From the NCBI GenBank assembly GCA_019310525.1, contig JAFDEE010000015.1, positions 1-48,737 on the forward strand: DNA of 48,737 nt. The letters run 5' to 3'. Under the pieces are notes generated by a model. The model saw only the letters and a program-made list of their open reading frames with translations. It was not told the DNA's origin and did not search any database. This document shows, piece by piece, positions 2,611-40,801 of this stretch; the stretch's first letter is position 1, and the number at the start of each line of letters is the position of its first letter. The translations under genes were made by a program, and so were the position numbers. Source of the DNA: Deltaproteobacteria bacterium. Its GTDB lineage: Bacteria > Desulfobacterota > DSM-4660 > Desulfatiglandales > HGW-15.

Positions 2611-2612
2611 AA

Positions 2613-2624
2613 GATCACCTCCTT
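2613..2624 (-). promoter_or_regulatory. Near-perfect Shine-Dalgarno sequence for the 2610 gene
   Basis: Read on the minus strand the site is AAGGAGGTGATC, complementary over 12 consecutive bases to the usual 3' end of bacterial 16S rRNA (GATCACCTCCTT). The GGAGG core is 7 nt from the TTG at 2610. So strong a site in front of a weak initiation codon decides the start of the glycosyltransferase. Confidence 0.8.
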
Positions 2625-2863
2625 CGTTTCATGGCTTCAAGGGGACGGACCCCGAGTAAGGGAGCTTCCCCCGGCCCTGGGGTGGTTTTCCACCGGATCA
2701 GGGTGTGAAAGGGACGGGCTTTCGATTCGGAAAGGCGGCACTCGCCGCTGTGCCAGACCCTTATCCGGCGTTTCATTATCAGTCACAGTGGTCCCTGTCA
2801 AATCCTTTAGTCCCTTAACGAATCCGGGTTCATCCATCCGCCCGGAAACCCATGAGATCGGCC

Positions 2864-3793
2864 TCACCCTTTTTTCCTGTCCGAGACAGGGTCTAAACAC
2901 ACATCATTGATCCCAGGTCCTTTTTCCGGAACAGCCCCCGGGTAGCGGGAAAAAGGGAAGCCAGTTTTCGACTCTTCGGTGCCGCGGACCATGATCTCGA
3001 ACTCGGAAAAAGGGATGCCAAGACCCATTCTGTCAGCTTCAAAACGCGCAATGAGCCTCGCCCCCAGACAATAGGGGGAAAAGTTGATCTTTCCGGTAAG
3101 ATAGGGCCTTGCGATCAGATCGGAGCAGCCAGCACGCAGCCCGGCGATGTCGGCCTGGGTCCTTCGCCCCGTGAGGAACTGGTAGCCCTGAATCACCCGG
3201 CAGAGTTCCACGGGTCTAAGGGACATGAAAACGATGTCGGGGAGGACCTCCACCTCGTCGAAATCGGGTGAGAAATAGAACACGCCCTGGACCGTCGGTG
3301 GCTGAATGGCCATCATCTCTGAGGTGGCCCGGCGGGCCGTCTCCCGCTTTCGGTATCTCCCGGAATCGTCCCTGCCGAAAAGGGCGTATTCCTCACGTTC
3401 GGCATCCTTGCAGGCATAGACCGTGCCGTTCGTGAACTCCGCAGGGGAAGGCGGTGTGAAATCTTCCTTCCTTCCGCTGTTCTCGCGCATGATCTCGGTG
3501 TATACTCTCGGCCCTTCAAGGGGTACGGACTGGTCCCGATCGACGAGGCCGAGGCTGATTGCGGCCGCGATACATCCGATATTTTCTTCTGTGAGATATA
3601 CGGCGTCTCCAAGGGTGGCGCACCTGGCGGCATGGCACGAGGTGACTGTTTCATTCAATGGGCTGAACTGAAGGAGATCACCGGGGATTGAGTCTTCCTT
3701 CCTGAAAAGGGTGATGCCGGCCATGGGGATCTCGAGATCAGGTACTTCCATGGCCTCTATGAGCCGCCGGGTCAATCGGTAAAATCGGGTCAT
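2864..3793 (-). CDS. DUF169 domain protein (309 aa)
   Basis: Member of the uncharacterised DUF169 family, which is frequent in anaerobic bacteria and archaea. Recognised from the start YRLTRRLIEAMEV followed by PMAGITLFRKED, the SCHAARCATLGDAVYLT segment that carries conserved cysteines, and the C-terminal SPYCLGARLIARFEADRMG and FSEFEIMVRGTEESKTGFPF segments. The start at 3793 is chosen because AGGAGGT lies 4-5 nt upstream of that ATG; the open frame extends 41 codons further but without a ribosome site or family similarity. It stands alone on the minus strand. Function unknown; the conserved Cys residues could bind metal, but that is only inferred. Confidence 0.75.
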   Translation of the reverse strand: MTRFYRLTRRLIEAMEVPDLEIPMAGITLFRKEDSIPGDLLQFSPLNETVTSCHAARCATLGDAVYLTEENIGCIAAAISLGLVDRDQSVPLEGPRVYTEIMRENSGRKEDFTPPSPAEFTNGTVYACKDAEREEYALFGRDDSGRYRKRETARRATSEMMAIQPPTVQGVFYFSPDFDEVEVLPDIVFMSLRPVELCRVIQGYQFLTGRRTQADIAGLRAGCSDLIARPYLTGKINFSPYCLGARLIARFEADRMGLGIPFSEFEIMVRGTEESKTGFPFSRYPGAVPEKGPGINDVCLDPVSDRKKG

Positions 3794-4110
3794 ATTACCT
3801 CCTGGGATCATTTGGTTGTGGAAATCCTCACACAAGTCCGCGAGGCGGCTCTTGCCCTTGTTGTCAACCGGGGGAAGACCGCAGGCGGTGTTTAATGGGA
3901 GTAGAGTCGGCATCAATGTTAAAGGGCCGACCCCTCCAGCTCCAGTGAATGAATCGGCAGGAACTTGGACAACCTTTAAGCCTGGATCCGGGGGATCGAG
4001 GGGGAAGAGTCGTGAGGCGGAACCTCGGAGCGCACGAAAATCTTAGGGATTGACAAAGTAACGGGAGCCTTGCAAGATGGTTTGGCCCCGGGTGGAGGTG
4101 TGTTATGTTT
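3794..4110. other. Intergenic region upstream of the DUF169 gene
   Basis: About 320 bp separate the DUF169 start from the inverted-repeat element. No coding region with a ribosome site or recognisable similarity was seen on either strand, and no convincing promoter could be chosen by eye. The open frame running through 3816-4046 has no family resemblance and no ribosome site. Confidence 0.4.
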
Positions 4111-4356
4111 TTAACCCAAATTATGCGTCAACAATGAAATTGATTTTTATTGCAATATGTTGAAGCATTCTGACAGCATCTAATGGGTGAAGGGGGAAGG
4201 GATGTTCCCTCCGCTACGTTCGCTACGCCGTCCATGGCTCCGCTCACTGCCGATTTTGGCTCTTCCACTCTCCTGCTCCAGAGCCAAAATAGGCCGCTTC
4301 CGGGAAAATCCCTTTCCCCTTCCTTGGGCGAGCGTTCACGCATAATTTGGGTTTAA
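4111..4356. mobile_element. MITE-like element or deleted insertion sequence with terminal inverted repeats
   Basis: A 16-bp perfect inverted repeat bounds this segment: AACCCAAATTATGCGT at 4113-4128 and its reverse complement at 4338-4353, both extending imperfectly outward to TTAA-like ends. Inside is a second perfect 11-bp inverted repeat at 4253-4263 and 4280-4290. On the minus strand a short open frame reads into the left terminus and ends KINFIVDA at a TAA (4121-4123) inside the inverted repeat, as the 3' end of a transposase gene often does. At about 245 bp it cannot encode a transposase, so it is best read as a non-autonomous derivative. The family is not identified. Confidence 0.6.
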
Positions 4357-4429
4357 TTCGGAGCTGAATTCAGAGGAGAGGCTTGAATTCATCGAAGCGC
4401 GAGACCTTCCAGATGCCTGGTTTCAGTGT

Positions 4430-5056
4430 GTGTACAGGTTGCTCGATACCGGACGGGAGTACCGGATCGACAGGGGGAGTTATCAGGGGCAGAAGCGCCT
4501 GGAGTTTGATTACGTGACCGTTCATATTAAGTTCCCGGGTGTAAGGCCCCTTCTGCCCGACATCCCACCCTCCCTGGGTATTCCAAATCCGGTGGCGGAG
4601 GGATACCTGGAGGAGTACTTGCCCTACCTCATGACCTCAGCCAAGCGGCCGGGCGAGGACTATACTTACGGACAGTACCTGGAGAAGCAGATCGAGGAAG
4701 TCATTCGTATGTACCGGGAGGACGGCCACGGCACTAACCAGGCCTATATGACCGTGGGGGAGCCGGACGCTCTTTTTCTGAAGGATCCTCCCTGCCTCCG
4801 GGGGATCGATACCCGGGTGATGGAGGGGAAACTTCATTTCTTCGTATACTTCCGATCCTGGGACCTTTGGAACGGCTTTCCCGCCAACCTGGGTGCCCTT
4901 CAGCTCCTCAAGGAGTACATGGCAGCGAGTATCGGTGTGGAGGACGGTGAGATCATCGCGGCGAGCAAAGGGCTTCATCTCTACGATTACGTATGGGAAC
5001 TGGCCAGGCTGAGGACCATGCGCGACAACCCTTCGGCCCTTTCCAGGGAGAAGTGA
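4430..5056 (+). CDS. Thymidylate synthase-like protein, 5' end possibly damaged
   Basis: Homologue of the thymidylate synthase/dCMP hydroxymethylase fold. The ThyA-type C-terminal half is recognisable: FVYFRSWDLWNGFPANLGAL, then ASIGVEDGEIIAASKGLHLYDYVWELA, matching the region of ThyA that holds the nucleotide-binding Arg-Ser-x-Asp and the H-x-Y motif. The active-site Cys region (PCLRGIDTRV) is not a standard ThyA PCH motif, so TMP synthesis is uncertain. The GTG at 4430 is the first usual start codon, but the frame is open back to 4346 and the translation just upstream (EFIEARDLPDAWFQC) looks like real protein. An AGAGGAGAGG ribosome-like site sits at 4372-4381 with no ATG/GTG/TTG in frame at the right distance. 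Stop is 1 bp from rlmN. Confidence 0.65.
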   Translation: MYRLLDTGREYRIDRGSYQGQKRLEFDYVTVHIKFPGVRPLLPDIPPSLGIPNPVAEGYLEEYLPYLMTSAKRPGEDYTYGQYLEKQIEEVIRMYREDGHGTNQAYMTVGEPDALFLKDPPCLRGIDTRVMEGKLHFFVYFRSWDLWNGFPANLGALQLLKEYMAASIGVEDGEIIAASKGLHLYDYVWELARLRTMRDNPSALSREK

Positions 5057-5057
5057 A

Positions 5058-6170
5058 ATGGAGGGCGTGGCAGTGGGCATTCCTGGAGAAGAGAAAGCGG
5101 GCCTTGAATCAGGGGGCGGGATGACCCTTGAGAAGGCGGATCTCAAGGGCATGGACTCCCGGGAGATGGAGACCTGGGTCCGGGAGTTGGGTCTGGAGAC
5201 CTATCGCGCGCGTCAGATCCGGCAGTGGCTTTTCCAGAAACAGGTCTCCTCTTTCAAGGAAATGACCAACCTCAGCAAGGCAGTAAGGGAACTCCTGGAG
5301 GAAAAGGCCCGTATCCACCATTTGGAGCAGGAGGAGGTTCAGGTCTCCCGGGACGGTACCAGAAAGTTTCTTTTCCGGCTGGAGGACGGACGGTTCATCG
5401 AATCCGTCCTGATCCCGGAACGGGACCATGCCACCCTGTGCATTTCCTCCCAGGTGGGGTGCGCCATGGGATGCCGCTTCTGCGTGACCGCAAAGCAGGG
5501 GTTCAAGCGGAATATGACCCCGGCGGAGATCGTGGACCAGGTGATTCAGGTGAGACGGACGATGGAGGATCCGGGGCGATTGCGCAATATCGTCCTTATG
5601 GGTATGGGAGAGCCACTCGCTAATTACCGGGCCGTGATCCGTGCCCTCGGAAACATCGTGGCGGAGGACGGGATGAATTTTTCCCATAGGAAGGTCACCC
5701 TTTCCACCTGTGGACTTGTTCCCCGCATGGCGGATCTGGGTCGGGATGCCGCCGTCAACCTGGCCGTTTCTCTCAACGCCGCGGACGAGGAGACCCGCAG
5801 CTACTTGATGCCCGTAAACCGCACCTACCCACTGAGTGATCTGATTCGGGCCTGCAGGGAATTCCCCCTGCCGAACCGGAGAATGATCACCTTTGAATAC
5901 ATTCTTATCCAGGGAGTGAATGATCGCGACCGGGACGCCCTTCGGCTCGTCCGGCTGCTCAATGGGATCCGGGCCAAGGTGAACCTGATTCCCCTCAATC
6001 CCCATCCCGCCCTGGACCTTCAGCCTTCCCCGATGGAAAGGATCCTCGGGTTCCAGAAGATCCTGATCGAGAACCATTTCACCGCCATCATCCGGAAGAG
6101 CAAGGGTCAGGACATTTCCGCGGCCTGCGGGCAACTGAGCGGTGCCCGTTCCAAGGGCTACGCGGCCTGA
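5058..6170 (+). CDS. rlmN: 23S rRNA/tRNA adenine-C2 methyltransferase RlmN
   Basis: Radical-SAM enzyme that methylates C2 of A2503 in 23S rRNA and A37 in some tRNAs. The radical-SAM cluster motif C-x3-C-x2-C is at residues 135, 139 and 142 (GCAMGCRFC). The GMGEPLANY and SLNAADEETR segments that contact SAM are present, as is the C-terminal AACGQL whose cysteine forms the methyl-enzyme intermediate. Length is normal. The ATG at 5058 lies one base after the previous stop; an internal ATG at 5121 with a GGGGGCGGG ribosome-like stretch just upstream would give a 349-residue protein and is an equally good start. Confidence 0.95.
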   Translation: MEGVAVGIPGEEKAGLESGGGMTLEKADLKGMDSREMETWVRELGLETYRARQIRQWLFQKQVSSFKEMTNLSKAVRELLEEKARIHHLEQEEVQVSRDGTRKFLFRLEDGRFIESVLIPERDHATLCISSQVGCAMGCRFCVTAKQGFKRNMTPAEIVDQVIQVRRTMEDPGRLRNIVLMGMGEPLANYRAVIRALGNIVAEDGMNFSHRKVTLSTCGLVPRMADLGRDAAVNLAVSLNAADEETRSYLMPVNRTYPLSDLIRACREFPLPNRRMITFEYILIQGVNDRDRDALRLVRLLNGIRAKVNLIPLNPHPALDLQPSPMERILGFQKILIENHFTAIIRKSKGQDISAACGQLSGARSKGYAA

Positions 6171-6322
6171 TGAAAAATGAACGGAAGCCGGAACGGGAAA
6201 GGATGGGAAATTTTTCACTTGCGATCCGATTTCAATATGTTATGTAAAATCCCTGTCAAAACGGGGGGAAGGGAGGACACCCGCCCGGGACATTTGGTCC
6301 CCGGTGCTTGGAGCGGTAAAAT

Positions 6323-6703
6323 ATGATCCGGTTGGATTTTGCAAAGGGGAACGGGCTTCTGCCCGCCATCGTCCAGGACCGGGCAACAGGAAAGGTCTTG
6401 ATGATGGCTTACATCAACGACGAGTCCTGGAGGAAGACCCTGGAGACAGGGGAGACCCATTTCTGGAGTCGGTCCCGGCAAGAGTTATGGCACAAGGGGG
6501 GCACATCCGGCCATGTCCAGAAGGTGCGGGAGATCTACGTGGACTGTGATGACGACACAGTCCTCTTTGTCGTCGATCAGGTGGGCGGAGCAGCTTGCCA
6601 TACAGGGTATGAGACCTGTTTTCACAAGAAGATCGGTCCCCGGGGAGAGGTCACCGTGGTGGGGAAAAAAATTTTTGATCCAGGGAAGGTTTACAAGGAA
6701 TGA
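6323..6703 (+). CDS. hisI: Phosphoribosyl-AMP cyclohydrolase HisI
   Basis: Third step of histidine synthesis, opening the purine ring of phosphoribosyl-AMP; cytoplasmic zinc enzyme. The 126-residue protein is the monofunctional cyclohydrolase without the HisE pyrophosphohydrolase domain. Conserved elements: [28 protein letters not shown] with the metal-binding acidic patch, and CHTGYETCF with the two cysteines that bind zinc. GGAG precedes the ATG. The stop overlaps the hisG start by 4 bp, so the two are coupled. hisE must be elsewhere. Confidence 0.96.
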
Positions 6704-7572
6704 AGAAACTCAAGTTCGGAATACCCAAAGGGAGCCTCCAGTCCGCGACCATCAGCCTCTTTGAGAAGTCGGGCTGGAAAATCAATGTCAATGGAAGGAG
6801 TTATTTTCCGGAGATCAACGATCATGCCCTGGATATCACCATATGCAGGGCCCAGGAGATGTCCCTCTACGTTGAAAACGGGACCCTGGACGCGGGTCTG
6901 ACCGGGAGGGACTGGATCGAAGAGAACCAGTCGGACGTCAAGGTGCTGGACAACCTGATCTATTCCAAGGTCAGCCAGCGGCCGGCACGGTGGGTTCTGG
7001 CGGTTCCCGCCGACTCTCCCATAGAGAAACTTGAGGACCTCCAGGGCAAGAAGATCTCAACAGAACTGGTCAATTTCACAAAGCGTTATTTCAAGGAGAG
7101 AAACATCGACGTCCGGGTCAGCTTTTCCTGGGGGGCCACGGAGGGTAAGGCGGTATCCGGATTGGCGGACGCCATCGTGGAAGTGACGGAGACGGGGAGC
7201 ACCATCAAGGCCCACGGCCTCAAGATCATCCATGAGCTGATGGAGTCCCACACCCAGATGATCGCAAACCGGGAGGCCTACCGGGTTCCCTGGAAGCGGG
7301 AGAAGATGGAGCAGATCATCCTTCTGCTCAAGGGGGCCTTAAGGGCGGAAAACATGGTGGGCGTCAAGATGAACGTTCCCAAGGATAAACTGGAGGACGT
7401 CATCAGGCTCCTTCCGAGCCTCAATTCGCCCACTGTTGCCAGCCTCTACAACATGCCCTGGTTTTCCGTGGAGGCAATCATCAATTCGGCCCTGGTCAGG
7501 GATCTGATCCCCCAGCTCCTCAAGGCGGGCGCGGAAGGAATTATCGAATATCCTCTCAACAAGGTGATATGA
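6700..7572 (+). CDS. hisG: ATP phosphoribosyltransferase HisG, long form
   Basis: First, feedback-regulated step of histidine synthesis: ATP plus PRPP to phosphoribosyl-ATP. At 290 residues it is the long, hexameric form with a C-terminal ACT-like regulatory domain (about residues 210-290), so no HisZ subunit is needed. [11 protein letters not shown] at the N-terminus, [13 protein letters not shown] near residue 65 and the PRPP-loop region [19 protein letters not shown] near 150 are as expected. ATGA overlap with hisI shows a two-gene operon. Confidence 0.96.
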
Positions 7573-7576
7573 GGCC

Positions 7577-8380
7577 ATGAAAGGATTCAGGACGATCTGG
7601 CCGGTGTGCCTGTTGCTGGCGGCGGTGCTCATAGGGTGTGCCCCCACAGGCAAAACCGTGCCGGGGAAACCCAAGGTCACGCCCAAAAGCCGGGCCGAGG
7701 CCAAGGAGAAACTTGGGCTGTCCATGATCGAGGAAGGAAATCTCCAGATGGGGCTCAAGGAGTTGCTGGAGGCCCGCGATCTGGACCCAGGGAACCCTGA
7801 TATCCACCTCGGCATCGGTATCGCCTACCGAAAGCTTGGAGAATATGCCAAGGCGGTAACCTATTTTCAGCGTGCCCTCGCCCTCAAGCCCGATTTCCCG
7901 GACGCCCATAATAACCTGGGGATGGTTTACGCCCTCATGGGGAGATGGGAGAAGGCCATCGACCTGTTCGAGAAGGCCATCAGTAATTACAAGTATGAAC
8001 GGAGACATACCGCCTTTGAAAACCTGGGGACGGTGTACTTTTACAGAGGGGATTACCGCCAGGCCGTGGTCAATTACCAAAAAGCCTTGAGACTGGAGCC
8101 CGATTACAGCCCTGCCTATGAAAAGATGGGCCTGGCCTACGAAAGGTTGAAGGAGTGGGATCATGCCCTTTTCGCCTACCGACAGGCCGTCAGATTGGAA
8201 CCCCGAAACCCCCTGCCTCATCTCTACCTCGGCAGGCTCTGTTTCCAACTCAAGCGATACGAGGACGCGGAAACGGCCCTACGAAGTGCCATCAGGAACG
8301 ACGTGACAGGAATAGTAGCCCAGGAAGCACGGAGGCTTTTAAGGGAGATCAAGAAGGCTCGGGAAGGGAAGGGGTCATAG
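7577..8380 (+). CDS. TPR-repeat lipoprotein (PilW/Tgl-like)
   Basis: Predicted lipoprotein: basic start, hydrophobic stretch and lipobox LIGC with the lipidated cysteine at residue 21. The mature part is built of about five to six tetratricopeptide repeats, with typical lines such as PDAHNNLGMVYALMGRWEKA and PAYEKMGLAYERLKEWDHA. Lipoproteins of this plan include the pilotins PilW/PilF/Tgl, which help assemble type IV pilus secretin, but no pilus gene is in view so that role is only suggested. It starts 4 bp after hisG, probably in the same transcript, with GAGG just upstream of the ATG. Confidence 0.8.
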   Translation: MKGFRTIWPVCLLLAAVLIGCAPTGKTVPGKPKVTPKSRAEAKEKLGLSMIEEGNLQMGLKELLEARDLDPGNPDIHLGIGIAYRKLGEYAKAVTYFQRALALKPDFPDAHNNLGMVYALMGRWEKAIDLFEKAISNYKYERRHTAFENLGTVYFYRGDYRQAVVNYQKALRLEPDYSPAYEKMGLAYERLKEWDHALFAYRQAVRLEPRNPLPHLYLGRLCFQLKRYEDAETALRSAIRNDVTGIVAQEARRLLREIKKAREGKGS

Positions 8381-8393
8381 GAATCCCTGGAGG

Positions 8394-9551
8394 ATGGACA
8401 TGAACATGGGCCGAATTGCGGAGAGGGCGGCGAAGATTCCTCCCTTCATTGTGATGGAGGTGCTGGAACGCGCCCACGAACTGGAAAGGGAAGGGAGGCG
8501 GATCATTCACCTGGAGATAGGCGAACCCGATTCCCCCACCCCTTCCTGTATTTGCGAAGCCGCAGCCAAGGCCATCCGGGAGGGCCGTACTCACTATACC
8601 CACAGCCTCGGGATCATTGAGCTGCGGGAAGGTATCTCACGGCACTACGAGGAAAAATACGGCGTTAAGGTCCATCCCGATCAGGTGGTGGTCACATCTG
8701 GAACTTCCCCGGCCCTCTTCATGATCTTTTCCGTTCTCCTGGAGTCCGAAGACGAGATCATCATTTCCAACCCCCATTATCCCTGCTACCCGAACTTCGC
8801 CCGGTTCATAGGGGCTAACCCGGTTTCCGTAAATGTCCACGAAGAAGAGGGCTTCCAGTACCGCCCGGAGGAAATCCGGAAAAAGCTCGGACCCAGGACC
8901 CGGGCCATCCTCGTCAATTCCCCCTCCAATCCCACCGGAAACCTGCTTTCAGCCGAGCGCATGGAAAAGATTGCAGACCTCGGTCCCTTCATCGTGTCGG
9001 ACGAGATTTATCACGGCCTGGTTTACGGAGAGCGCGAGCACTCCATCCTCGAATTCACGGACAGGGCCTTTGTTCTGAACGGCTTCTCCAAGACCTTCGC
9101 CATGACCGGGTGGCGGCTTGGGTACGTCATCGCCCCGGGAGAATTCGTGCGTCCTCTCCAGAAGATCCAGCAGAATTTCTTTATCTCCGCGGGGAGTGTA
9201 TCCCAATGGGCAGGTGTGGCGGCCCTGCGGGACGCCGGCCCGGACGTAGAGAAGATGAGAGCCCTGTATGATAAGCGCAGGCGGTATATGATCAAGAGAT
9301 TAAGGGAGCTTGGTTTCGGCCTGAAAGTGGAGCCCGCCGGCGCCTTTTACGTACTGGCAAATGCCAAACACCTGTCTGAGAACTCCTACGAGCTGGCCTT
9401 CGAGATCTTGGAAAGGGCCGGTGTGGGGGTGAGCCCGGGAATCGATTTCGGGCATAACGGAGAGGGATACCTCCGTTTCTCCTACGCCAATTCCTTGGAC
9501 AATATCAAGGAGGGCCTGGACCGCATCGAGGCCTACCTTGAATCCCGCTAG
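8394..9551 (+). CDS. PLP-dependent class I/II aminotransferase
   Basis: Fold-type I aminotransferase of the aspartate/aromatic amino-acid group. The PLP lysine is K233 in SKTFAMTGWR, preceded by VSDEIYHGLVYG with the aspartate and tyrosine that hold the cofactor, and NSPSNPTGN is the substrate-carboxylate region. R-F-S-Y-A near the C-terminus supplies the conserved arginine. Length (385 aa) is normal. Position after hisG could hint at histidinol-phosphate aminotransferase, but the sequence looks more like the general AspC/PatA type; substrate undecided. The stop TAG is followed directly by the engB ATG. Confidence 0.88.
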   Translation: MDMNMGRIAERAAKIPPFIVMEVLERAHELEREGRRIIHLEIGEPDSPTPSCICEAAAKAIREGRTHYTHSLGIIELREGISRHYEEKYGVKVHPDQVVVTSGTSPALFMIFSVLLESEDEIIISNPHYPCYPNFARFIGANPVSVNVHEEEGFQYRPEEIRKKLGPRTRAILVNSPSNPTGNLLSAERMEKIADLGPFIVSDEIYHGLVYGEREHSILEFTDRAFVLNGFSKTFAMTGWRLGYVIAPGEFVRPLQKIQQNFFISAGSVSQWAGVAALRDAGPDVEKMRALYDKRRRYMIKRLRELGFGLKVEPAGAFYVLANAKHLSENSYELAFEILERAGVGVSPGIDFGHNGEGYLRFSYANSLDNIKEGLDRIEAYLESR

Positions 9552-10154
9552 ATGAGGGTTGAATTTTTAAAGAGCGCCTTTCGTGAAGAACATTACCCTC
9601 CGCCGGACCGCCCGGAAGTGGCCTTCGCCGGGCGCTCCAATGTGGGGAAGTCTTCCCTTCTTAACGTTCTGGTCAATCGCAGGAAGTTGGCCCGTACCAG
9701 CTCCACGCCCGGGCGGACCCGGGCCCTTAATTTTTTCAACGTGGAAAACCGCCTCTACTTGGTGGACCTCCCCGGTTATGGGTATGCCCGGGTGCCCTTG
9801 AGGGTCAAGGCCTCATGGCGCGAGATGGTAGAGACCTATCTGAGAGGGAGGGAAAATCTGAGGGCCGTGGTTCTCATCCTGGATATCCGTAGGGATCCCG
9901 GACAGGAGGAGATCCAGCTCCTTCAATGGTTGGATCACTACAGGATTCCCTCTATCCTGGTGCTCACAAAGGCGGACAAGATCTCCCGGAACCAAGCGGC
10001 GGGGCGGGCGTCAAAGGTTGGATCGGCCTTGAAGGGGCTTATATCGTCCCATCCGGTTATCTTTTCCGCAAGGACGAAGGAGGGGAGGGGGGATCTGGGT
10101 GAGAGGATCAACCGGCTCACGAATCTCGACCTTTTTCGAGACCATAAGCTTTGA
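9552..10154 (+). CDS. engB: Ribosome-assembly GTPase EngB (YsxC/YihA)
   Basis: TRAFAC-class GTPase needed for assembly of the 50S subunit. G1 is GRSNVGKSSLLN near residue 28, G2/switch lies in SSTPGRTRALNFF, G3 is VDLPGYGYA and G4 is LTKADK. 200 residues is typical. It begins with no gap after the aminotransferase stop. Its last 38 bp overlap the 3' end of the convergent NtrX-like gene. Confidence 0.95.
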   Translation: MRVEFLKSAFREEHYPPPDRPEVAFAGRSNVGKSSLLNVLVNRRKLARTSSTPGRTRALNFFNVENRLYLVDLPGYGYARVPLRVKASWREMVETYLRGRENLRAVVLILDIRRDPGQEEIQLLQWLDHYRIPSILVLTKADKISRNQAAGRASKVGSALKGLISSHPVIFSARTKEGRGDLGERINRLTNLDLFRDHKL

Positions 10155-11487
10155 TCTTTCTGTGGAGATTGCTTCTTTCCACACCGATGGCCTCCGCGGT
10201 CTGGGAGATGTTTCCATTGAACTCCCTGAGTTTCTTTTCAAGGAAGGCCTTTTCGAAGCGCATCTTGGCCTCTTTGAAAGTAGCCGCATCCAGCCCCCGT
10301 TCAAACCCGTCTTCGCCCTCGGATTGCCGATTGAAGGGTGGAGGAATGTCCTTGGCCTGGATGACCCGATCCGGGGTCATGATCACGAGCCTTTCCACCA
10401 GGTTCCGGAGTTCCCTGACGTTTCCAGGCCAATGATATTTTTTGAGGATTTCGAGGGCCTCCCCGGAGAAGACTTTTCCCTTCAGGTTGGTATTCCTGGC
10501 GATCTCCGCCAGGAATTCCTCCACCAGTTGGGGGATGTCTTCAACCCTCTCCCTGAGGGGCGGCACCTTGATGGGGATTACGTTGAGGCGGAAGTAAAGG
10601 TCCTCCCGGAAATTTCCTTTCTCGATTTCCGCTTCGAGATCCTTGTTGGTCGCCGCGATCACCCGGACGTCCACGTGGATGGTTCTGGAACCTCCCACCC
10701 TTTCGAATTTCTGCTCCTGGAGGATCCGGAGGGTCTTGGACTGGGCCTTGAGGCTCATGTCCCCGATTTCATCCAGGAACAGGGTTCCCTCGTGGGCAAG
10801 GTCAAACTTGCCCTTTTTCATGGCACCCGCCCCCGTGAAGGCCCCCTTTTCATGGCCGAAGAGTTCGCTTTCGATCAGTTCTTCCGGGATGGCGGCACAG
10901 TTGACCTCCACCATGGGCTTCCGGCTGCGCTTGCTGAGCCTGTGGATGGTGTGGGCCACCAATTCTTTCCCCGTACCGTTTTCCCCCGAGATCAGGACCC
11001 ACGCATCCGTAGGAGCCACGATTTGGATCTGCTCCTTGAGTTTGCGGATAGCCTCGCTTTCCCCGGTGATCCGGTACCTGTTCTTGTCTCTTTCTTTGAG
11101 AAGGGAAATCTCCTCCTCCAGACGATAGTAGTCCAGAGCATTGTTGATTGACAGGAGGACCTTGTCCAGGGAGAGGGGCTTTTCGATGAAGTCGTAAGCC
11201 CCCAGCTTTGTGGCCTTGACCGCGGTTTCGATGTTGCCGTGACCGGACATCATGACCACCTGGAGATGGGGGTGCAGTTTCTTGATCCTGACCAGGGTCT
11301 GGATCCCGTCCATGTCCGGCATCCAGATATCCAGAAGGACCAGGTCCGGGAGGACTTCTTCGATCCTTTCCAGGGCCTCCTCTCCGCTCGAGGCCCGGAT
11401 CACATCGAAACCTTCGTCTACCAGGATGCCCTCGAGGGACTGGAGGATACTCTCTTCATCATCAACGATCAGGATGGTTCGCGCCAT
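10117..11487 (-). CDS. NtrX-like sigma-54-dependent response regulator
   Basis: Three-domain enhancer-binding activator. Receiver domain (residues 1-120) with D9-D10 and phosphorylated D53 in LLDIWMPDMDG; AAA+ domain with Walker A GENGTGKE at 168-175 and the sigma-54 contact loop GAFTGA at 215-220; Fis-type helix-turn-helix at the C-terminus (AEAIGVERSNLHRKIKAYGL). The segment MSGHGNIETAVKATKLGAYD is characteristic of NtrX. It follows lpxB by 22 bp on the same strand, so it may be transcribed with the lipid A genes. No histidine kinase (NtrY) is adjacent. Confidence 0.88.
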   Translation of the reverse strand: MARTILIVDDEESILQSLEGILVDEGFDVIRASSGEEALERIEEVLPDLVLLDIWMPDMDGIQTLVRIKKLHPHLQVVMMSGHGNIETAVKATKLGAYDFIEKPLSLDKVLLSINNALDYYRLEEEISLLKERDKNRYRITGESEAIRKLKEQIQIVAPTDAWVLISGENGTGKELVAHTIHRLSKRSRKPMVEVNCAAIPEELIESELFGHEKGAFTGAGAMKKGKFDLAHEGTLFLDEIGDMSLKAQSKTLRILQEQKFERVGGSRTIHVDVRVIAATNKDLEAEIEKGNFREDLYFRLNVIPIKVPPLRERVEDIPQLVEEFLAEIARNTNLKGKVFSGEALEILKKYHWPGNVRELRNLVERLVIMTPDRVIQAKDIPPPFNRQSEGEDGFERGLDAATFKEAKMRFEKAFLEKKLREFNGNISQTAEAIGVERSNLHRKIKAYGLEKGRDS

Positions 11488-11509
11488 AAGAGATACCCGC
11501 GATTGTCTT

Positions 11510-12697
11510 TCATCCCATCATTTCAAAGGCGATTTCAGCGGTTCTCCGGGAAGGAGAGCCTCTGCCGAGTTTCTGGCGGAGGGCCTGTAATTCTTTTATC
11601 ATATTTTTCCTGGCCTCGCCATGTTCGAGGAGGGGTAATGCTGCGCGGGCGAGGTTGTGGGGCGTGACTTCACCTTGGAGGAGTTCCGGGACAAAGGGGG
11701 CGTCGGCCACGAGGTTCACCAGACCCACGTGGGACACCCGGACCACCCGCTTGGCAAGCCGGAAACTCAAGGGGGAAACTCGGTAGACAATGATCATGGG
11801 AACCCCGAGAAGGCCTGCCTCCAGGGTGGCCGTCCCTGAGGCCACCAGGGCCAGATCGCTGGCCGCCAGCACACGATAGGCCTGGCCCCGGAGGAGACGG
11901 ATGTCCAGGGAAGCCGTCTGGGCCATGTCCCGGAGCCGGTCGAAGGAGACCGTTGAGGCCACGGGGAGAAGGCATTTCAGGCGGGGATAGAGGCCGGAGA
12001 GGATCCGGGCCGCCCCTGCCATGGGGGGAAAGAGGTTCATGACCTCTTCGCTCCTGCTTCCGGGCAGGAGCCCCAGCACAGGATCGGCCCCTTCCAGGCC
12101 CAACTCCCGTCGCACCGATTCCTTTTCCATTTTTTCCGGCACAGCGTCCAGGAGGGGATGCCCGACGTATTCCACCCGGACACCTCTTTTCCGGTAAAAG
12201 TCTTCCTCGAAGGGAAGAATCACCGCCATCCGATCCACCCTTCGGGCTATTTTTCGAACGCGGCCGCTTCTCCAGGCCCAGATCTGGGGGCTGATATAGT
12301 AAAGGACCGGGACCCCCACCCGCTTCGCCGTGCGGGCCAGGTTGATGTTGAAGTCCGGGTAATCTATGAGGATAAGGAGGTTGGGTTTGCGGCGCTTCAG
12401 AATAGACTTCAAGACCCTGGAGGCCTTGTAGATGAGCCGGGCCCGGCTGAAGACCTCCGTGATCCCCACGACGGCCATCTCAGAGGATGAAAAGAGAATT
12501 CGAACCCCTGCCCGGGCCATTTCCCTGCCGCCGATCCCCCAGAAACAGAGGCTGGGATCGGCGGAACTCATGGCCCGCACCAAGTTGGCCCCGTGAAGAT
12601 CCGCCGAGGCCTCCCCCGCTACGATCAAGACGAGTCTCGAATCCCCGGGCTCAGCCCAGGGCCTGGAAGTTTTTGGATCCTCTTTCGATCTGTTCAT
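11510..12697 (-). CDS. lpxB: Lipid-A-disaccharide synthase LpxB
   Basis: GT19 enzyme that joins UDP-2,3-diacylglucosamine and lipid X to make the lipid A disaccharide at the inner membrane face. VLIVAGEASADLHGANL is the diagnostic N-terminal motif, followed by FWGIGGREMARAG, IDYPDFNINLA, YYISPQIWAWRSGR and GHPLLD; the C-terminal half has LLPGSRSEEV. Start taken as ATG 12697, giving 395 aa, which fits the family; the frame is open 35 codons further into the preceding gene but without LpxB similarity. This start lies within the end of the Gfo/Idh gene (47-bp overlap), so translation is probably coupled. Confidence 0.95.
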   Translation of the reverse strand: MNRSKEDPKTSRPWAEPGDSRLVLIVAGEASADLHGANLVRAMSSADPSLCFWGIGGREMARAGVRILFSSSEMAVVGITEVFSRARLIYKASRVLKSILKRRKPNLLILIDYPDFNINLARTAKRVGVPVLYYISPQIWAWRSGRVRKIARRVDRMAVILPFEEDFYRKRGVRVEYVGHPLLDAVPEKMEKESVRRELGLEGADPVLGLLPGSRSEEVMNLFPPMAGAARILSGLYPRLKCLLPVASTVSFDRLRDMAQTASLDIRLLRGQAYRVLAASDLALVASGTATLEAGLLGVPMIIVYRVSPLSFRLAKRVVRVSHVGLVNLVADAPFVPELLQGEVTPHNLARAALPLLEHGEARKNMIKELQALRQKLGRGSPSRRTAEIAFEMMG

Positions 12698-13649
12698 TGA
12701 TGGCAAGCGCGGCGTCCAGGGCCCTGAGACCGTCTCTGCCGGAAACCACGGGGGGTGTCCCTCGGGCCACGGCATCCACAAAGGCACGGATCTGGTCGGC
12801 AAGGGGGTCGCTTTCGGGGTACCGCCATTTTTCCGTGGAGATCCGTGGAGGGCACGGGTCCTCCCCCACGGTGTTCCCGTCCAGCCGAGTCATGCTGAGT
12901 TCCCGCTTCAGGCAATCCACAGACAGATAGGTGTCGGGCTGAAAGATCCGTATCTTTCTCAATGCCTTGTTGGAAACCCTGCTGGCGGTAAGGTTGGCGG
13001 CAGTTCCGTTTTCAAAGATAATCCGTACATTGGCGATGTCAGTCTTTTCGGTCAAGACCGTCATCCCTACGGCATGGAGCTCCCTGATCTCGGAGCCCAC
13101 GGAGTGGAAGATGATGTCCAGGTCGTGGATCATGAGATCGAGGACCACGTCGACGTCGGTTCCCCTGCTCGTGAAAGGGCTCAGCCGGTGAGATTCGATG
13201 AAAACAGGCCGGTTGAGCAGGGTTTCCATCCTTCGGACGGCCGGGTTGAATCTCTCCACATGCCCCACCTGGAGGACAAGGCCTTTTTCCGAGGCCAAGG
13301 CGATAAGACGCCGCGCCTGGTCGGAAAGGCAGGTGATGGGTTTTTCCACGAGAAGGTGGACGCCCCGGGAAAGGATGTCCATTGAAAGAGCATAGTGGTC
13401 CTCCGTGGGCACGGCAAGACTCACGCAATCGACCATTTCCAGTAGATCATCGTGCCTTTCGAAGGTTCGGGTTCCGTAACGGCGTGCGATGCTCTCCGCC
13501 CGTTCCCGGTCGATGTCCATCACGCCCACCAGATCCACCTCGGGCATGGCTTCGTATTTCTGGACATGATACTGCCCCAGGTGACCCACACCGATCACGC
13601 CGGCCCGTATTTTTTGCTTGGAATTCAATGAATCGGTATCCTGTTTCAT
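12651..13649 (-). CDS. Gfo/Idh/MocA-family oxidoreductase in the lpx cluster
   Basis: NAD(P)-dependent sugar oxidoreductase of the glucose-fructose/inositol dehydrogenase family. GVIGVGHLGQYHVQKY near residue 17 is the dinucleotide-binding loop, and LVEKPI near residue 95 is the family's catalytic lysine-proline motif; the C-terminal beta-sheet domain follows. The gene lies between lpxI and lpxB and overlaps lpxB. In Acidithiobacillus and Leptospira a member of this family, GnnA, oxidises UDP-GlcNAc at C3 so that GnnB can aminate it for a diamino-sugar lipid A. No GnnB aminotransferase is next to it here, so this function is a hypothesis. Confidence 0.85.
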   Translation of the reverse strand: MKQDTDSLNSKQKIRAGVIGVGHLGQYHVQKYEAMPEVDLVGVMDIDRERAESIARRYGTRTFERHDDLLEMVDCVSLAVPTEDHYALSMDILSRGVHLLVEKPITCLSDQARRLIALASEKGLVLQVGHVERFNPAVRRMETLLNRPVFIESHRLSPFTSRGTDVDVVLDLMIHDLDIIFHSVGSEIRELHAVGMTVLTEKTDIANVRIIFENGTAANLTASRVSNKALRKIRIFQPDTYLSVDCLKRELSMTRLDGNTVGEDPCPPRISTEKWRYPESDPLADQIRAFVDAVARGTPPVVSGRDGLRALDAALAINEQIERGSKNFQALG

Positions 13650-13752
13650 GCTCGAGAAAGATTGCTTCTAAAAGCCCCCGGAAAGTAACCGGGGATAGGA
13701 TGAAATATCCGGCACAGGGAATACCCAGGCCCGGAGAGGAGATGGGGAGAAA

Positions 13753-14565
13753 TCACCGGGAGATGATTGAAATCCCATTCTCCTCCGCAAATGCCACGGC
13801 CTCCTGCTTGTCGAAGAGCAGGGTCTTTCCTGCCTCCACGGCGAGGACAGATGCCCGTACTTCCGCCATGGTTTTCAGGGTCTCCAATCCCACGCTGGGC
13901 ACGTCGAATCTCAGGTCCTGATTCGGCTTGCTGGCCTTTACCACCACCGCGCCTTCCCGTGCTATTCTTCCACCCCGGCGGATGGTTTCATTCGTTCCTT
14001 CCAGGGCCTCCAGGGCCAGGACGGTCCTGTCTTTCACCACAACACACTGGCCGATGTCCAGCCGTCCGAGTTCCTTGGCGATCCGCCATCCGAATTCGAC
14101 GTCTTCCTTTTCCTTCCTGGAGGGTTTCCTCCTGGTAAGGCAGCCCTGGGGGGCCAGGAGGTCAGGGAGACAAAAGGTGGAAGGGAGGACCTCGATTCCC
14201 TGGGAGGCGAGTTCATCCGCCACTGCCCGAAGGATGCCGTCATCGTGAAAGACGGCCAACCGGGACATGAGGGCCAGACCCTTCAGGTCTGGTCGGATGC
14301 CGCTGAACATCCGTCGCTTGGTGATGGTGCCGGCCATAAGAACCTTCCGGACCCCCTGCTTTTTCAACTCCTTGATCAGGCGGCCCAGTTGCCCCAGTTG
14401 AATCCAGGAGATGGCGTCCACCTTCTCTTCAAGGGCGGGATCGGTCTCATCAAGGTGCGCCACGGCAACGACCCGGTACCCTTGGGCCTTGGCGGCCTCT
14501 GCGATCATCCGGGGGAACTTGCCGCCCCCGGCAATGAGTCCGATGCTTTCTTTTCCTTCATCCAT
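13753..14565 (-). CDS. lpxI: UDP-2,3-diacylglucosamine pyrophosphatase LpxI
   Basis: Hydrolyses UDP-2,3-diacylglucosamine to lipid X and UMP, replacing LpxH in alpha- and deltaproteobacteria (formerly DUF1009). IGLIAGGGKFPRMIAEAAK at the N-terminus, VRKVLMAGTITKRRMF near residue 80 and the C-terminal LRFDVPSVGLETLKTM segment are diagnostic. 270 residues is normal. It is placed between lpxA and the Gfo/Idh gene, on the same strand; 83 bp separate it from lpxA. Confidence 0.94.
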   Translation of the reverse strand: MDEGKESIGLIAGGGKFPRMIAEAAKAQGYRVVAVAHLDETDPALEEKVDAISWIQLGQLGRLIKELKKQGVRKVLMAGTITKRRMFSGIRPDLKGLALMSRLAVFHDDGILRAVADELASQGIEVLPSTFCLPDLLAPQGCLTRRKPSRKEKEDVEFGWRIAKELGRLDIGQCVVVKDRTVLALEALEGTNETIRRGGRIAREGAVVVKASKPNQDLRFDVPSVGLETLKTMAEVRASVLAVEAGKTLLFDKQEAVAFAEENGISIISR

Positions 14566-37816: not shown

Positions 37817-37939
37817 GAAAAATTCCGGGTTCAGTGAACACGGTAAAGATATAGAGAGATCTTTGAAAAACGTTCGATTTTGTTCAAGGTCAAGCCTCCG
37901 GCCCGTAAGGCCTACGCCCCGGAGGGGAAGACGAAGATT

Positions 37940-38083
37940 TCCGCCACCTCGTGAGGGATGCCACGCGGTACAGGCATTTATACAGTAAAATATTTCGAGG
38001 ATTGAATTTGTCCGCGCGTGGCGACGACTCCTCACCCTTTGGGCGGGTTTCCCGTTTGTGTTTGAAAGTCAGGCGTTTTGCAA
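37940..38083 (-). repeat. Dispersed ~140-bp repeat, copy 2
   Basis: Read on the minus strand it matches 15996-16133: ACCCGCCC, then GCGCGGACAAATTC, TCCTCGAAATA, CTGTATAAATGCCTGT and a GC-rich end. It occupies much of the gap between tRNA-Gln and tRNA-Glu. Confidence 0.65.
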
Positions 38084-38097
38084 AGGTCTCAGAAAAG

Positions 38098-38173
38098 GGT
38101 CCCATCGTCTAGCGGTCTAGGATACCGGCCTCTCACGCCGGAGACACGGGTTCGATTCCCGTTGGGACTACCA
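38098..38173 (+). tRNA. tRNA-Glu (anticodon CTC)
   Basis: Acceptor stem GGTCCCA with TGGGACT (one G-T pair), anticodon CTC in loop CTCTCAC between CCGGC and GCCGG, T-arm ACGGG-TTCGATT-CCCGT, discriminator A, encoded CCA. Its 3' half is duplicated 1067 bp downstream, marking it as the integration site of a small island. Confidence 0.96.
38127..38169 (+). repeat. att-like direct repeat, left copy (in tRNA-Glu)
   Basis: 43 bp from the anticodon stem to the acceptor stem of tRNA-Glu, identical to 39194-39236. After one mismatch (A/G) five more bases, CCAGG, also agree. Typical of a tRNA-targeting tyrosine integrase. Confidence 0.85.
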
Positions 38174-38185
38174 GGTAAAATCAAG

Positions 38186-38215
38186 GGGTTAGCTAATATC
38201 GGCTAATCCTTTTTT
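38186..38215 (+). terminator. Terminator after tRNA-Glu
   Basis: Stem GGGTTAGC (38186-38193) with GCTAATCC (38202-38209, one G-T pair), followed by six T. Confidence 0.75.
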
Positions 38216-38412
38216 GTCCCAGAGTGTGTATAGGGTGCGTTTTGGCGAAAAAATTTTTTGGGTTCACAGCTTATCCCTCATCTCACCAGCACCCGGCACC
38301 ATATCATCCAGGCCATCCACTTCACACTTATTGCGCCCCGGTATTCCGATGCCATTATTACACCGGCTAAGGTGTGTATTTCATCTACCCAATTCAAGCA
38401 TTGTTAAGTCCT

Positions 38413-38442
38413 TTGACTTTCTGTCCGAATATAAGCTATAGT
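38413..38442 (+). promoter_or_regulatory. Promoter of the island operon
   Basis: TTGACT at 38413-38418, TATAGT at 38437-38442, spacer 18 bp, followed by an AAAGGAGGG ribosome site and the ATG at 38472. The cassette therefore has its own expression signals. Confidence 0.65.
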
Positions 38443-38471
38443 TAGTAAGTTACGAAAGGAGGGAACTAGAA

Positions 38472-38672
38472 ATGAAACCTAAAACTGTCCGGGTCCTGAG
38501 GGGCATGGGCAGTATCTTGGACCTATCCCCCCGAACAGATCGCCGGGCGATAATTATCTCAAAAGACCCAGCGGCGTGCATGGCCAGCCATTGGAACAAT
38601 GTGGGGCGGCACATAAGGCACGCAATTGATACGTTCGCCCATGAGCAAAAAGAAAAAACGGGACGCCGTTAA
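38472..38672 (+). CDS. Small island protein of unknown function (66 aa)
   Basis: Basic 66-residue protein with no membrane segment. The C-terminal half, ASHWNNVGRHIRHAIDTFAH, looks like an amphipathic helix; short proteins with a similar ending often stand directly before DUF2335 genes, as far as I recall. AAAGGAGGG is 8 nt before the ATG. It overlaps the next gene by 32 bp in another frame, so both are probably made together. Confidence 0.7.
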   Translation: MKPKTVRVLRGMGSILDLSPRTDRRAIIISKDPAACMASHWNNVGRHIRHAIDTFAHEQKEKTGRR

Positions 38673-39066
38673 TACCCCTGTTCCAACCCCCAACACTCAA
38701 GGCGCACAGATAGCACAAATATCTGGAACTCGCTTTGCGGGTCCTATTCCCCCACCAGACCTATTAAAGGGATACGACGATATCATCCCTGGGGCTGCTG
38801 AACGCATTTTGAGAATGGCAGAAGAAGAGGCAGCCCATGCACACCGGATGAATCAGTTAACATTGGAACTTTCGGCTAAAGAGGTAAAGCGGGGACAGGT
38901 ATCTGGTTTTGGGGTTGCAATTGCGGCTTTTATTGTGGCTACTGTTGCCCTTTTTTTGGGCTTAGAAAAAGCCGCAATGACCATAGGCGGAACAACAATA
39001 GTGGGCCTGGTTACTGTCTTCGTTACCGGGCGAAAGTATGGAGCTGAGAAGCCTAAAAAAGAGTAA
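38641..39066 (+). CDS. DUF2335 family two-helix membrane protein
   Basis: 141 residues. Signature PPPDLLKGYDDIIPGAAERI followed by LRMAEEEAAHAHRMN, a charged helix, then two membrane helices, about residues 88-108 (GVAIAAFIVATVALFLGL) and 113-132 (MTIGGTTIVGLVTVFVTG), and a basic end. ATG 38641 starts MSKKKKRDAV without its own ribosome site and inside the upstream gene, so translational coupling is likely. Function of the family is unknown; occurrence on a mobile island would fit host or phage interaction, which is inference. Confidence 0.8.
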   Translation: MSKKKKRDAVNTPVPTPNTQGAQIAQISGTRFAGPIPPPDLLKGYDDIIPGAAERILRMAEEEAAHAHRMNQLTLELSAKEVKRGQVSGFGVAIAAFIVATVALFLGLEKAAMTIGGTTIVGLVTVFVTGRKYGAEKPKKE

Positions 39067-39193
39067 AGATTTTACCCTTGTCACAGTGCTAAAACAGGGT
39101 GCGTATGGGGTGCAAAATCGCCTTCTAAAACGCTCAATTTCGGCACAAGTTAATAAGCTAACTAGCTTAACTTATTGAACTAAATATTCGATA

Positions 39194-39236
39194 GGCCTCT
39201 CACGCCGGAGACACGGGTTCGATTCCCGTTGGGACT
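39194..39236 (+). repeat. att-like direct repeat, right copy (tRNA-Glu 3' fragment)
   Basis: Identical over 43 bp to 38127-38169; it lacks the 5' half of the tRNA and cannot make a functional tRNA. The strong hairpin directly after it was probably the original downstream flank of tRNA-Glu. Confidence 0.85.
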
Positions 39237-39252
39237 GCCAGGAAATAGATAA

Positions 39253-39286
39253 CCCCCTGATTTCCTTAATGGAGTCAGGGGGTTTT
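39253..39286 (+). terminator. Terminator hairpin after the right att copy
   Basis: Stem CCCCCTGA (39253-39260) with TCAGGGGG (39275-39282) then TTTT. Confidence 0.75.
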
Positions 39287-39366
39287 GCGTTCTTCTTCTC
39301 CGGTTTTTCTCGCTTTGTCGTCTACTGCCTCAATCAACGCTTGACCGGGTTCCCGACCACTTGCAG

Positions 39367-39504
39367 AGGCTGTTGAAAAACGTAACGAGCGCAGATGAGA
39401 CAAGGCAAAATGAGGCGAGAAAGCGGAGTTTACATCTAGTAAATGAGCATTTTGAGCCTCATTTTAACGCAGTACCAGCAAGCGCAGTAGGTTTTCAACA
39501 GCCT
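39367..39504. repeat. 138-bp palindromic MITE-like repeat after the AICAR transformylase gene
   Basis: Ends are the inverted repeat AGGCTGTTGAAAAAC (39367-39381) and GTTTTCAACAGCCT (39491-39504). A nested 10-bp inverted repeat AAAATGAGGC/GCCTCATTTT lies inside, so the whole could fold into a long hairpin. Shares termini and the GCAAGCGCAG motif with the short copy in bamA. It ends 1 bp before the stop of the neighbouring gene. Confidence 0.75.
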
Positions 39505-39505
39505 G

Positions 39506-40801
39506 CTAGTGCTTGAAGGCCCTCTGCCCGGTGAACACCATGGTCACCTGGGGGTCGGCCTCGTTGCAAGCTTGGATGGACTCGAAGTCCCGCATGGAAC
39601 CGCCGGGATGGACGATGGCCCGAATTCCCTCCTTGATGGCGACATCCACCCCGTCCCTGAACGGAAAGAAGGCGTCGGAGACCATAGTGGCCCCTATGAG
39701 GCCACCCTTCGCCTCCCTGGTTTCCTTGTCGATTTCGTCAAGAAGGGCCTTTTCCTTTTCACCTTCCTTGATTTTCAACTCCAGTTCCTTGTAAGGGAGA
39801 CCGTACCTTTTAAAGCAAAGGGCGTCCGCAAACTTGGTATAGGCCTTGAAGATGGCGATTTCGGCTACACCGACCCGGTCCTGTTCCCCTGTCCCTATAC
39901 CCACGGTCACGCCGTCCTTCACATAGATCACGGAATTGGAGGTGATTCCCTGCTCAACCTGCCATCCGAAGAGCATGTCCTGGTATTCAGCCTCTGTCGG
40001 TTTCCGTTCGATAGTATACCGTTTCCCCTTGTACTCGCAGGAGGCCAGGGTAAAGTCCTCCACGCTTCGAATGCGATTCAGGGGGGACTGCTGCACGATG
40101 ATCCCGCCGTCGATCAGGCTCTTGAAGTCCACAAACCGTTCTCCTGCATATTTCCCCAATCGGTCGATCCGGTTGATTCGCACGATTCTCAGGTTGGCCC
40201 GGCGGCCGAGGATCGGGAGAGTCCCTTCCTCGTAGTCCGGGGCGCCCACTACCTCGAGGTAATTTTCCGAGATCATTTCCGCGGTGGCCTTGTCCACGGG
40301 CCGGTTGAATACGGCGCACCCGCCAAAGGCGGCAATCCGGTCCGCCATGTTGGCCTTGTCGTAGGCCGTGGATAGGTTCTCCCCACAGGCCACGCCGCAG
40401 GGGTTGTTGTGCTTGACAATGACCGCAGTAGGCCTTTCCGTCAGGTATCTCAGGATATTGAGGGCGTTGTCCAGGTCGGTCAGATTGGTCTTTCCCGGGT
40501 GCTTTCCGCTCTGAATCAGGTCGTCGTCTCCGATGGAAGAGACCAGGCCCTTGCCCGGATCTATGAAGCGGCAGTCCCCCAGCACGAGGTTCCCGTTGAC
40601 CAGTTCGTAAAGGGCTGCTTCCTGCCCGGGGTTCTCCCCATAACGAAGTCCTTTCTCGATGAGTTCCCCGGTCTTCTCGTCACGGATTTTCCAGGTGCGC
40701 TTCCTGTAAACCAGGGTCTGTTCCCCGAAGGAAATGGTCATACTGGGTGGGAAGTGATCGTCCATTACCGTGCGGTACATCTCTTTCAGGTTATTGCTCA
40801 T
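39506..40801 (-). CDS. purH: AICAR transformylase domain protein (stand-alone PurH C-terminal part)
   Basis: Formyl transfer from 10-formyl-THF to AICAR, the ninth step of purine synthesis. The 431-residue protein covers only the AICARFT module: RYGENPGQEAALY near residue 53, catalytic Lys-His in VIVKHNNPCG near 135, and the C-terminal DAFFPFRDGVDVA and AIVHPGGSMRD. The N-terminal IMP cyclohydrolase domain (about 200 residues) of normal PurH is absent and there is no room for it upstream. GGAGGAT precedes the ATG. IMP cyclohydrolase must be encoded elsewhere. Confidence 0.9.
   Translation of the reverse strand: MSNNLKEMYRTVMDDHFPPSMTISFGEQTLVYRKRTWKIRDEKTGELIEKGLRYGENPGQEAALYELVNGNLVLGDCRFIDPGKGLVSSIGDDDLIQSGKHPGKTNLTDLDNALNILRYLTERPTAVIVKHNNPCGVACGENLSTAYDKANMADRIAAFGGCAVFNRPVDKATAEMISENYLEVVGAPDYEEGTLPILGRRANLRIVRINRIDRLGKYAGERFVDFKSLIDGGIIVQQSPLNRIRSVEDFTLASCEYKGKRYTIERKPTEAEYQDMLFGWQVEQGITSNSVIYVKDGVTVGIGTGEQDRVGVAEIAIFKAYTKFADALCFKRYGLPYKELELKIKEGEKEKALLDEIDKETREAKGGLIGATMVSDAFFPFRDGVDVAIKEGIRAIVHPGGSMRDFESIQACNEADPQVTMVFTGQRAFKH

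Follow-up and report, generated by a model that had tools for sequence, protein, structure and literature searches.

A 1.07-kb island in tRNA-Glu, very probably the remnant of an internally deleted tyrosine-integrase element

Organisation of the tRNA-Glu locus

The locus described here lies in a window of 48.7 kb (the whole stretch of DNA that was analysed, 48,737 nucleotides), and comprises a tRNA-Glu gene, a second copy of its 3' half and, between the two, a pair of overlapping open reading frames (ORFs). Its features are the following:

38098-38173, plus strand: tRNA-Glu(CTC), identified by ARAGORN and Rfam
38127-38169, plus strand: attL core of 43 bp, from the anticodon stem-loop through the acceptor stem
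38183-38212, plus strand: terminator hairpin (AAGGGGTTAG...), read as element-derived; -14.6 kcal/mol, z -3.9
38222-38238, plus strand: attL-side arm-type site 48 bp past the tRNA end, matching GGGTGCGTATAGGGTGC at 15 of 17 positions
38267-38380, minus strand: decayed tyrosine integrase C-terminus (IPGRNKCEVDGLDDMVPGAGEMRDKL, then a stop; compare HWMPGKKKAEVDALDD... in intact homologues)
38413-38442, plus strand: sigma-70-like promoter, TTGACT-18-TATAGT (one found versus 1.4 expected by chance)
38455-38463, plus strand: strong Shine-Dalgarno sequence of the 66-aa ORF
38472-38672, plus strand: 66-aa ORF, conserved DUF2335 partner (phrog_26284, E 4.7e-7)
38644-39066, plus strand: DUF2335 membrane protein of 140 aa (two hydrophobic segments; PF10097; phrog_3996)
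39097-39113, plus strand: attR-side (distal) arm-type site, GGGTGCGTATGGGGTGC
39194-39236, plus strand: attR core, read as the host's original tRNA-Glu 3' half, now displaced
39251-39284, plus strand: terminator, read as the original one of the host tRNA-Glu gene; -23.2 kcal/mol, z -5.2

The initial annotation had reported that the 3' half of tRNA-Glu is repeated exactly over 43 bp and that a second strong terminator follows the distal copy, and both observations are confirmed, with a start-to-start spacing of 1067 bp. The longest ungapped match between the copies extends over 50 of 52 bp (2 mismatches), and this pair is the only direct repeat of at least 25 bp in the window. In the distal copy the 5' half is missing and no tRNA gene is predicted, which leaves a regenerated tRNA-Glu followed in the same orientation by a cognate 3' fragment, the arrangement by which tRNA islands are recognised. 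When the DNA is excised from repeat start to repeat start, the joined flanks form an intact tRNA-Glu, complete with a CCA and a terminator of its own. The island is also low in GC (46.7% versus 55.5%).

The two copies differ at their 3' terminus, where the resident gene has A73 followed by CCA (ACCA) and the distal copy has G73 (GCCA), a difference that points to two sources for the repeat. As a guide to the origin of each copy the discriminator is weak evidence by itself, since both bases are present in the family: three members (G003, G011 and G013) have G, and A prevails among relatives with a AAGGGGTTAG-type hairpin 3' of the gene. Hairpins of this kind lie 3' of tRNA genes in many relatives and are also found in phage attP. 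In the simplest reading, the 5' part of the resident tRNA-Glu belongs to the host and its 3' half was supplied by the element, the distal 3' half being the host's original. Because the repeat starts in the anticodon stem, the crossover is placed in or near the anticodon loop, and the Islander catalogue (PMC4383910) counts crossover in the anticodon region among its main classes. The identity of the cores (43/43) suggests a recent event, yet the integrase tail and one arm are altered.

An old tandem duplication of tRNA-Glu, the second copy of which decayed, would also leave a 3' fragment in tandem. It was nevertheless rejected as extremely improbable, given that the distal 5' half is absent rather than decayed while the remaining 43 bp are identical, that the copies are separated by foreign ORFs and by arms of phage type, and that the joined flanks make a single intact gene with its own terminator.

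An empty site would have the tRNA 5' half joined directly to GGGACTGCCAGGAAATAGATAACCCCC. Among 20 relatives, none of them from the same genus, the sequence 3' of tRNA-Glu differs, and synteny of this gene with purH, folE2 and selA is not conserved in the stretches compared. Two genomes of the same family (G009 and G011) have a different integrase directly after tRNA-Glu, which identifies this gene as a repeated insertion site.

The surroundings of the island contain other repeats. One at 37856-38065, just upstream of tRNA-Glu, has three more copies in the same genome (contigs C4, C48 and C53), and another at 39360-39510, beside the island, is a MITE-like repeat of about 140 bp with 13-bp terminal inverted repeats (AGGCTGTTGAAAA) and 36 full or partial matches in the same genome.

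Arm-type sites and the integrase remnant

When both strands of the window were searched for sequences within 3 mismatches of GGGTGCGTATAGGGTGC, two sites were found, one at each end of the island. The exact 17-bp pattern GGGTGCGYATRGGGTGC was then searched in the genomes of the class and in a phylum-wide sample, with the reversed pattern as control. It adjoins tRNA sequence at 16 of its 18 exact occurrences in other genomes of the phylum: 13 of these lie 25-61 bp past the tRNA end, and in the other 3 a tRNA 3' fragment follows at about 75-100 bp. Within the class it is present in 6 of 84 other genomes, each time 49-61 bp past a tRNA (Met, Glu, Arg, Ala, Leu and Leu); the 12 occurrences outside the class comprise 7 at 25-49 bp past a tRNA, 3 of attR type and 2 with no tRNA sequence nearby. 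The reversed pattern has zero occurrences in the same genomes.

In IMG/VR, 2 of 20 arm-motif matches adjoin tRNA 3' ends (L099 and L093). The first of these is a circular phage (41-kb contig) in which an arm, the 3' half of tRNA-Met, a hairpin and a second arm are contiguous, constituting an unintegrated attP; the phage encodes its own tyrosine integrase about 21 kb from this site, and no DUF2335 gene was found in it. Alignment of both window ends with L099, and of the attL side with L093, gave scores of 89.5, 66.5 and 81.0, where shuffled sequences averaged 43.5, 27.1 and 32.3 (sd 4-6); the two L099 matches lie about 8-9 sd above the shuffles. Since both contigs were found through the arm motif, the arm part of these matches is there by construction, but this selection does not account for the agreement in tRNA core, hairpin and opposite arm. 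Viral contigs carrying the tRNA-Glu core with AAGGGGTTAG, or the core alone, were not found, and comparison of the element DNA with phage records gave no meaningful match. The arm-type sites at the two ends belong to a single integrase family.

The initial annotation described the island as lacking any integrase. This holds for the gene, as there is no integrase ORF between the repeats, but not for its remains. Two relatives (G065 and G037) have a complete tyrosine integrase on the minus strand after the arm (phrog_1 in both; PF00589 with 97 bits in G037), and in a third (G044) the end of an integrase follows the arm at the contig edge. The C-termini of the three resemble ...HWMPGKKKAEVDALDD..., and the minus strand of the window reads IPGRNKCEVDGLDDMVPGAGEMRDKL and a stop at the equivalent place; the DNA alignment with the relatives extends from the arm into the integrase gene. 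In a six-frame search with an integrase profile, 38267-38380 was the best match in the window, albeit weak when taken alone (E 0.17, whole window). A targeted test of the integrase tail gave a score of 47.5, compared with a shuffle maximum of 35.5 (0 of 1000 reaching it) and a maximum of 33.3 among other window segments (0 of 644), figures that are somewhat generous because the similarity was first noticed by eye and the test designed afterwards. The tail is short, with about 16 clearly alignable residues; its reading frame is interrupted, and the upstream part of the gene is missing.

Loss of the integrase by deletion is an ordinary fate of such elements. Among 13 arm-plus-tRNA sites, 6 lack an integrase C-terminal motif within the following 400 bp (simple motif search), so this loss may be common. 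Here, the putative deletion junction falls at about 38380-38470. Since the genome is a draft of 158 contigs, a full-length element might have been collapsed to 1.07 kb during assembly, although this is very improbable, as the junction does not lie at a collapse-prone repeat and the joined parts are coherent at both ends.

An intact relative is present in G037, where a phage-satellite-like element of about 14 kb occupies tRNA-Arg (L112 ~163-14275, G037:C71). Its order is arm, integrase, HTH/excisionase-like proteins, primase and terminase large subunit, with attR about 14 kb on; no capsid gene was recognised among its scanned proteins. Its length is near the size peak of 13.6 kb given for tRNA islands by Islander (PMC4383910). 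By this kinship, the parent of the window element was probably a phage or a phage satellite; an intact parent with the same cargo was not found in the searched genomes. The integrases beside tRNA-Glu in G009 and G011 (L035 and L036) were considered as the parent type and rejected, the adjoining sequence having no arm motif, and they probably represent another family at the same tRNA.

The two-gene cargo

The 66-aa ORF overlaps the DUF2335 gene by 29 bp. The 140-aa product of the latter matches PF10097 with 58.3 bits, above the curated Pfam cut-off of 25, and phrog_3996 with an E of 1.4e-35, a family annotated as moron membrane protein. The distribution of DUF2335 is patchy, with 1 of 85 genomes in the class and 16 of 395 in the phylum. 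At most of the other loci, an ORF of 60-110 aa overlaps the gene or directly precedes it, and these partner ORFs have in common the pattern LDL...A..SDWxxVGxDI..A. A VGxDL motif likewise appears in unannotated or hypothetical ORFs upstream of DUF2335 in the Klebsiella phage BUCT711 and in two plasmids from Enterobacter, including a phage-plasmid (L080 ~5591-5941, L081 ~6035-6536 and L082 ~4528-4941). DUF2335 and its small, often unannotated partner may thus be regarded as a widespread undescribed gene pair common to phages, plasmids and scattered bacterial genomes. None of 16 other bacterial DUF2335 loci examined has the arm motif, which indicates that the cargo travels in other vehicles too.

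As for function, the search of both proteins with PADLOC and NCBIfam returned weak partial matches only, the search of viral contigs returned no close relatives of the DUF2335 protein, and DUF2335 receives passing mentions only in the literature. Judged by its context, the cargo most likely provides a membrane-located phage accessory function, such as exclusion or defence, and the function of the pair is directly testable.

The presence of intact cargo between complete ends bears on the second choice offered by the initial annotation, which took the island for either a deletion product or a satellite-like cassette. As a satellite, the 1.07-kb unit would be a mobile minimal cassette that depends on the integrase of another element acting in trans, and the two genes would be cargo under selection. 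In favour of this, each end has kept its core and its arm, and the two intact ORFs have a promoter-like site and a Shine-Dalgarno sequence. It is quite unlikely, however, since the cassette was found once in 61 genomes, with no second copy, DUF2335 occurs in a single one of the 85 class genomes, the 16 other DUF2335 loci examined have no such arms, none of the PF00589 proteins of the same genome is an evident helper, and the tail of an integrase pseudogene is still present. A more specific version, in which the partner and DUF2335 form an antiphage module, that is, a minimal defence cassette between complete armed att sites that selection maintains and that is mobilised each time the cell is entered by a phage or satellite with an integrase of this family, is quite unlikely. 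Of the two choices, deletion is thus favoured over the satellite, mainly on the integrase C-terminal remnant beside attL.

Two of the PF00589 matches in the same genome are XerC/XerD-like, another is a truncated IntI-like protein, and the remaining one, of 428 aa, is encoded on a 3.1-kb contig; they were named by eye from sequence features. The truncated integron-integrase-like gene is located at L027 (G000:C31:4191-4460). As no integrase of the family (a potential helper) is evident in this 97%-complete assembly, present excision is unlikely, and the remnant is unlikely to be mobile today.

Proposed history and relation to known systems

The island is very probably what remains of a tyrosine-integrase element that entered tRNA-Glu and lost all but its two ends and two cargo genes through internal deletion. 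An integrated element of this type, as initially proposed, is supported by the reconstituted tRNA, the arms at both ends, the attP of the circular phage and the occurrence of the cargo in a single class genome. According to this scheme, a phage or phage-satellite element whose integrase family targets the tRNA anticodon loop would have integrated into tRNA-Glu. At strand exchange the tRNA would have acquired the 3' half and terminator of the element (ACCA), while those of the host (GCCA) were displaced to the distal end. Subsequently, an internal deletion would have removed nearly the whole element, including all but about the last 40 integrase codons beside attL, sparing both att sites with their arms and the two genes beside attR. 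The remnant would now be inherited passively, and could be excised only by a matching integrase acting in trans.

The remnant indicates how far such elements may shrink while both integration ends stay recognisable. It also provides a usable signature for integrase-less remnants that are missed by integrase-based finders, namely a tRNA end, an element terminator and GGGTGCGYATRGGGTGC about 25-61 bp further on.

Several known systems share features with the island. The DUF2335 genes of phages (BUCT711) and of phage-plasmids belong to the same family and are preceded by a partner ORF with VGxDL, although they are 40-50% identical over part of the protein and sit in full phage genomes or plasmids. 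The tRNA-Arg element of G037 shares the arm motif, its approximate distance from the tRNA and the integrase orientation, and its attR has a related arm, but it is full length, with integrase, excisionase-like HTH proteins, primase and terminase, and it has no DUF2335. An autonomous or trans-mobilised satellite would be expected as the same unit at several sites or in several genomes, and the present unit occurs once.

The tRNA islands of the Islander catalogue with an anticodon-centred attP likewise have a regenerated tRNA and a displaced 3' fragment, with crossover in the anticodon region (PMC4383910). The catalogue, however, requires an integrase gene, which it expects inside a putatively active island; the window remnant has none and would therefore be filtered out.

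The closest parallel is with CIMEs (PMC5704250), att-flanked decay products that strictly stem from an ICE or IME after loss of its transfer genes. As in these, both att sites are kept (the 43-bp cores, with arms at both ends), the integration genes are lost except for the integrase C-terminal remnant, and cargo is left in a tRNA gene. The differences are that the apparent parent is a phage or phage satellite and not an ICE or IME, that the island shows no accretion with a neighbouring element, and that it is very small (1.07 kb). No conjugation gene was seen in it and the family relatives examined are phage-like, so the label is restricted to 'CIME-like'. The closest known kind is a phage-derived equivalent of a CIME.
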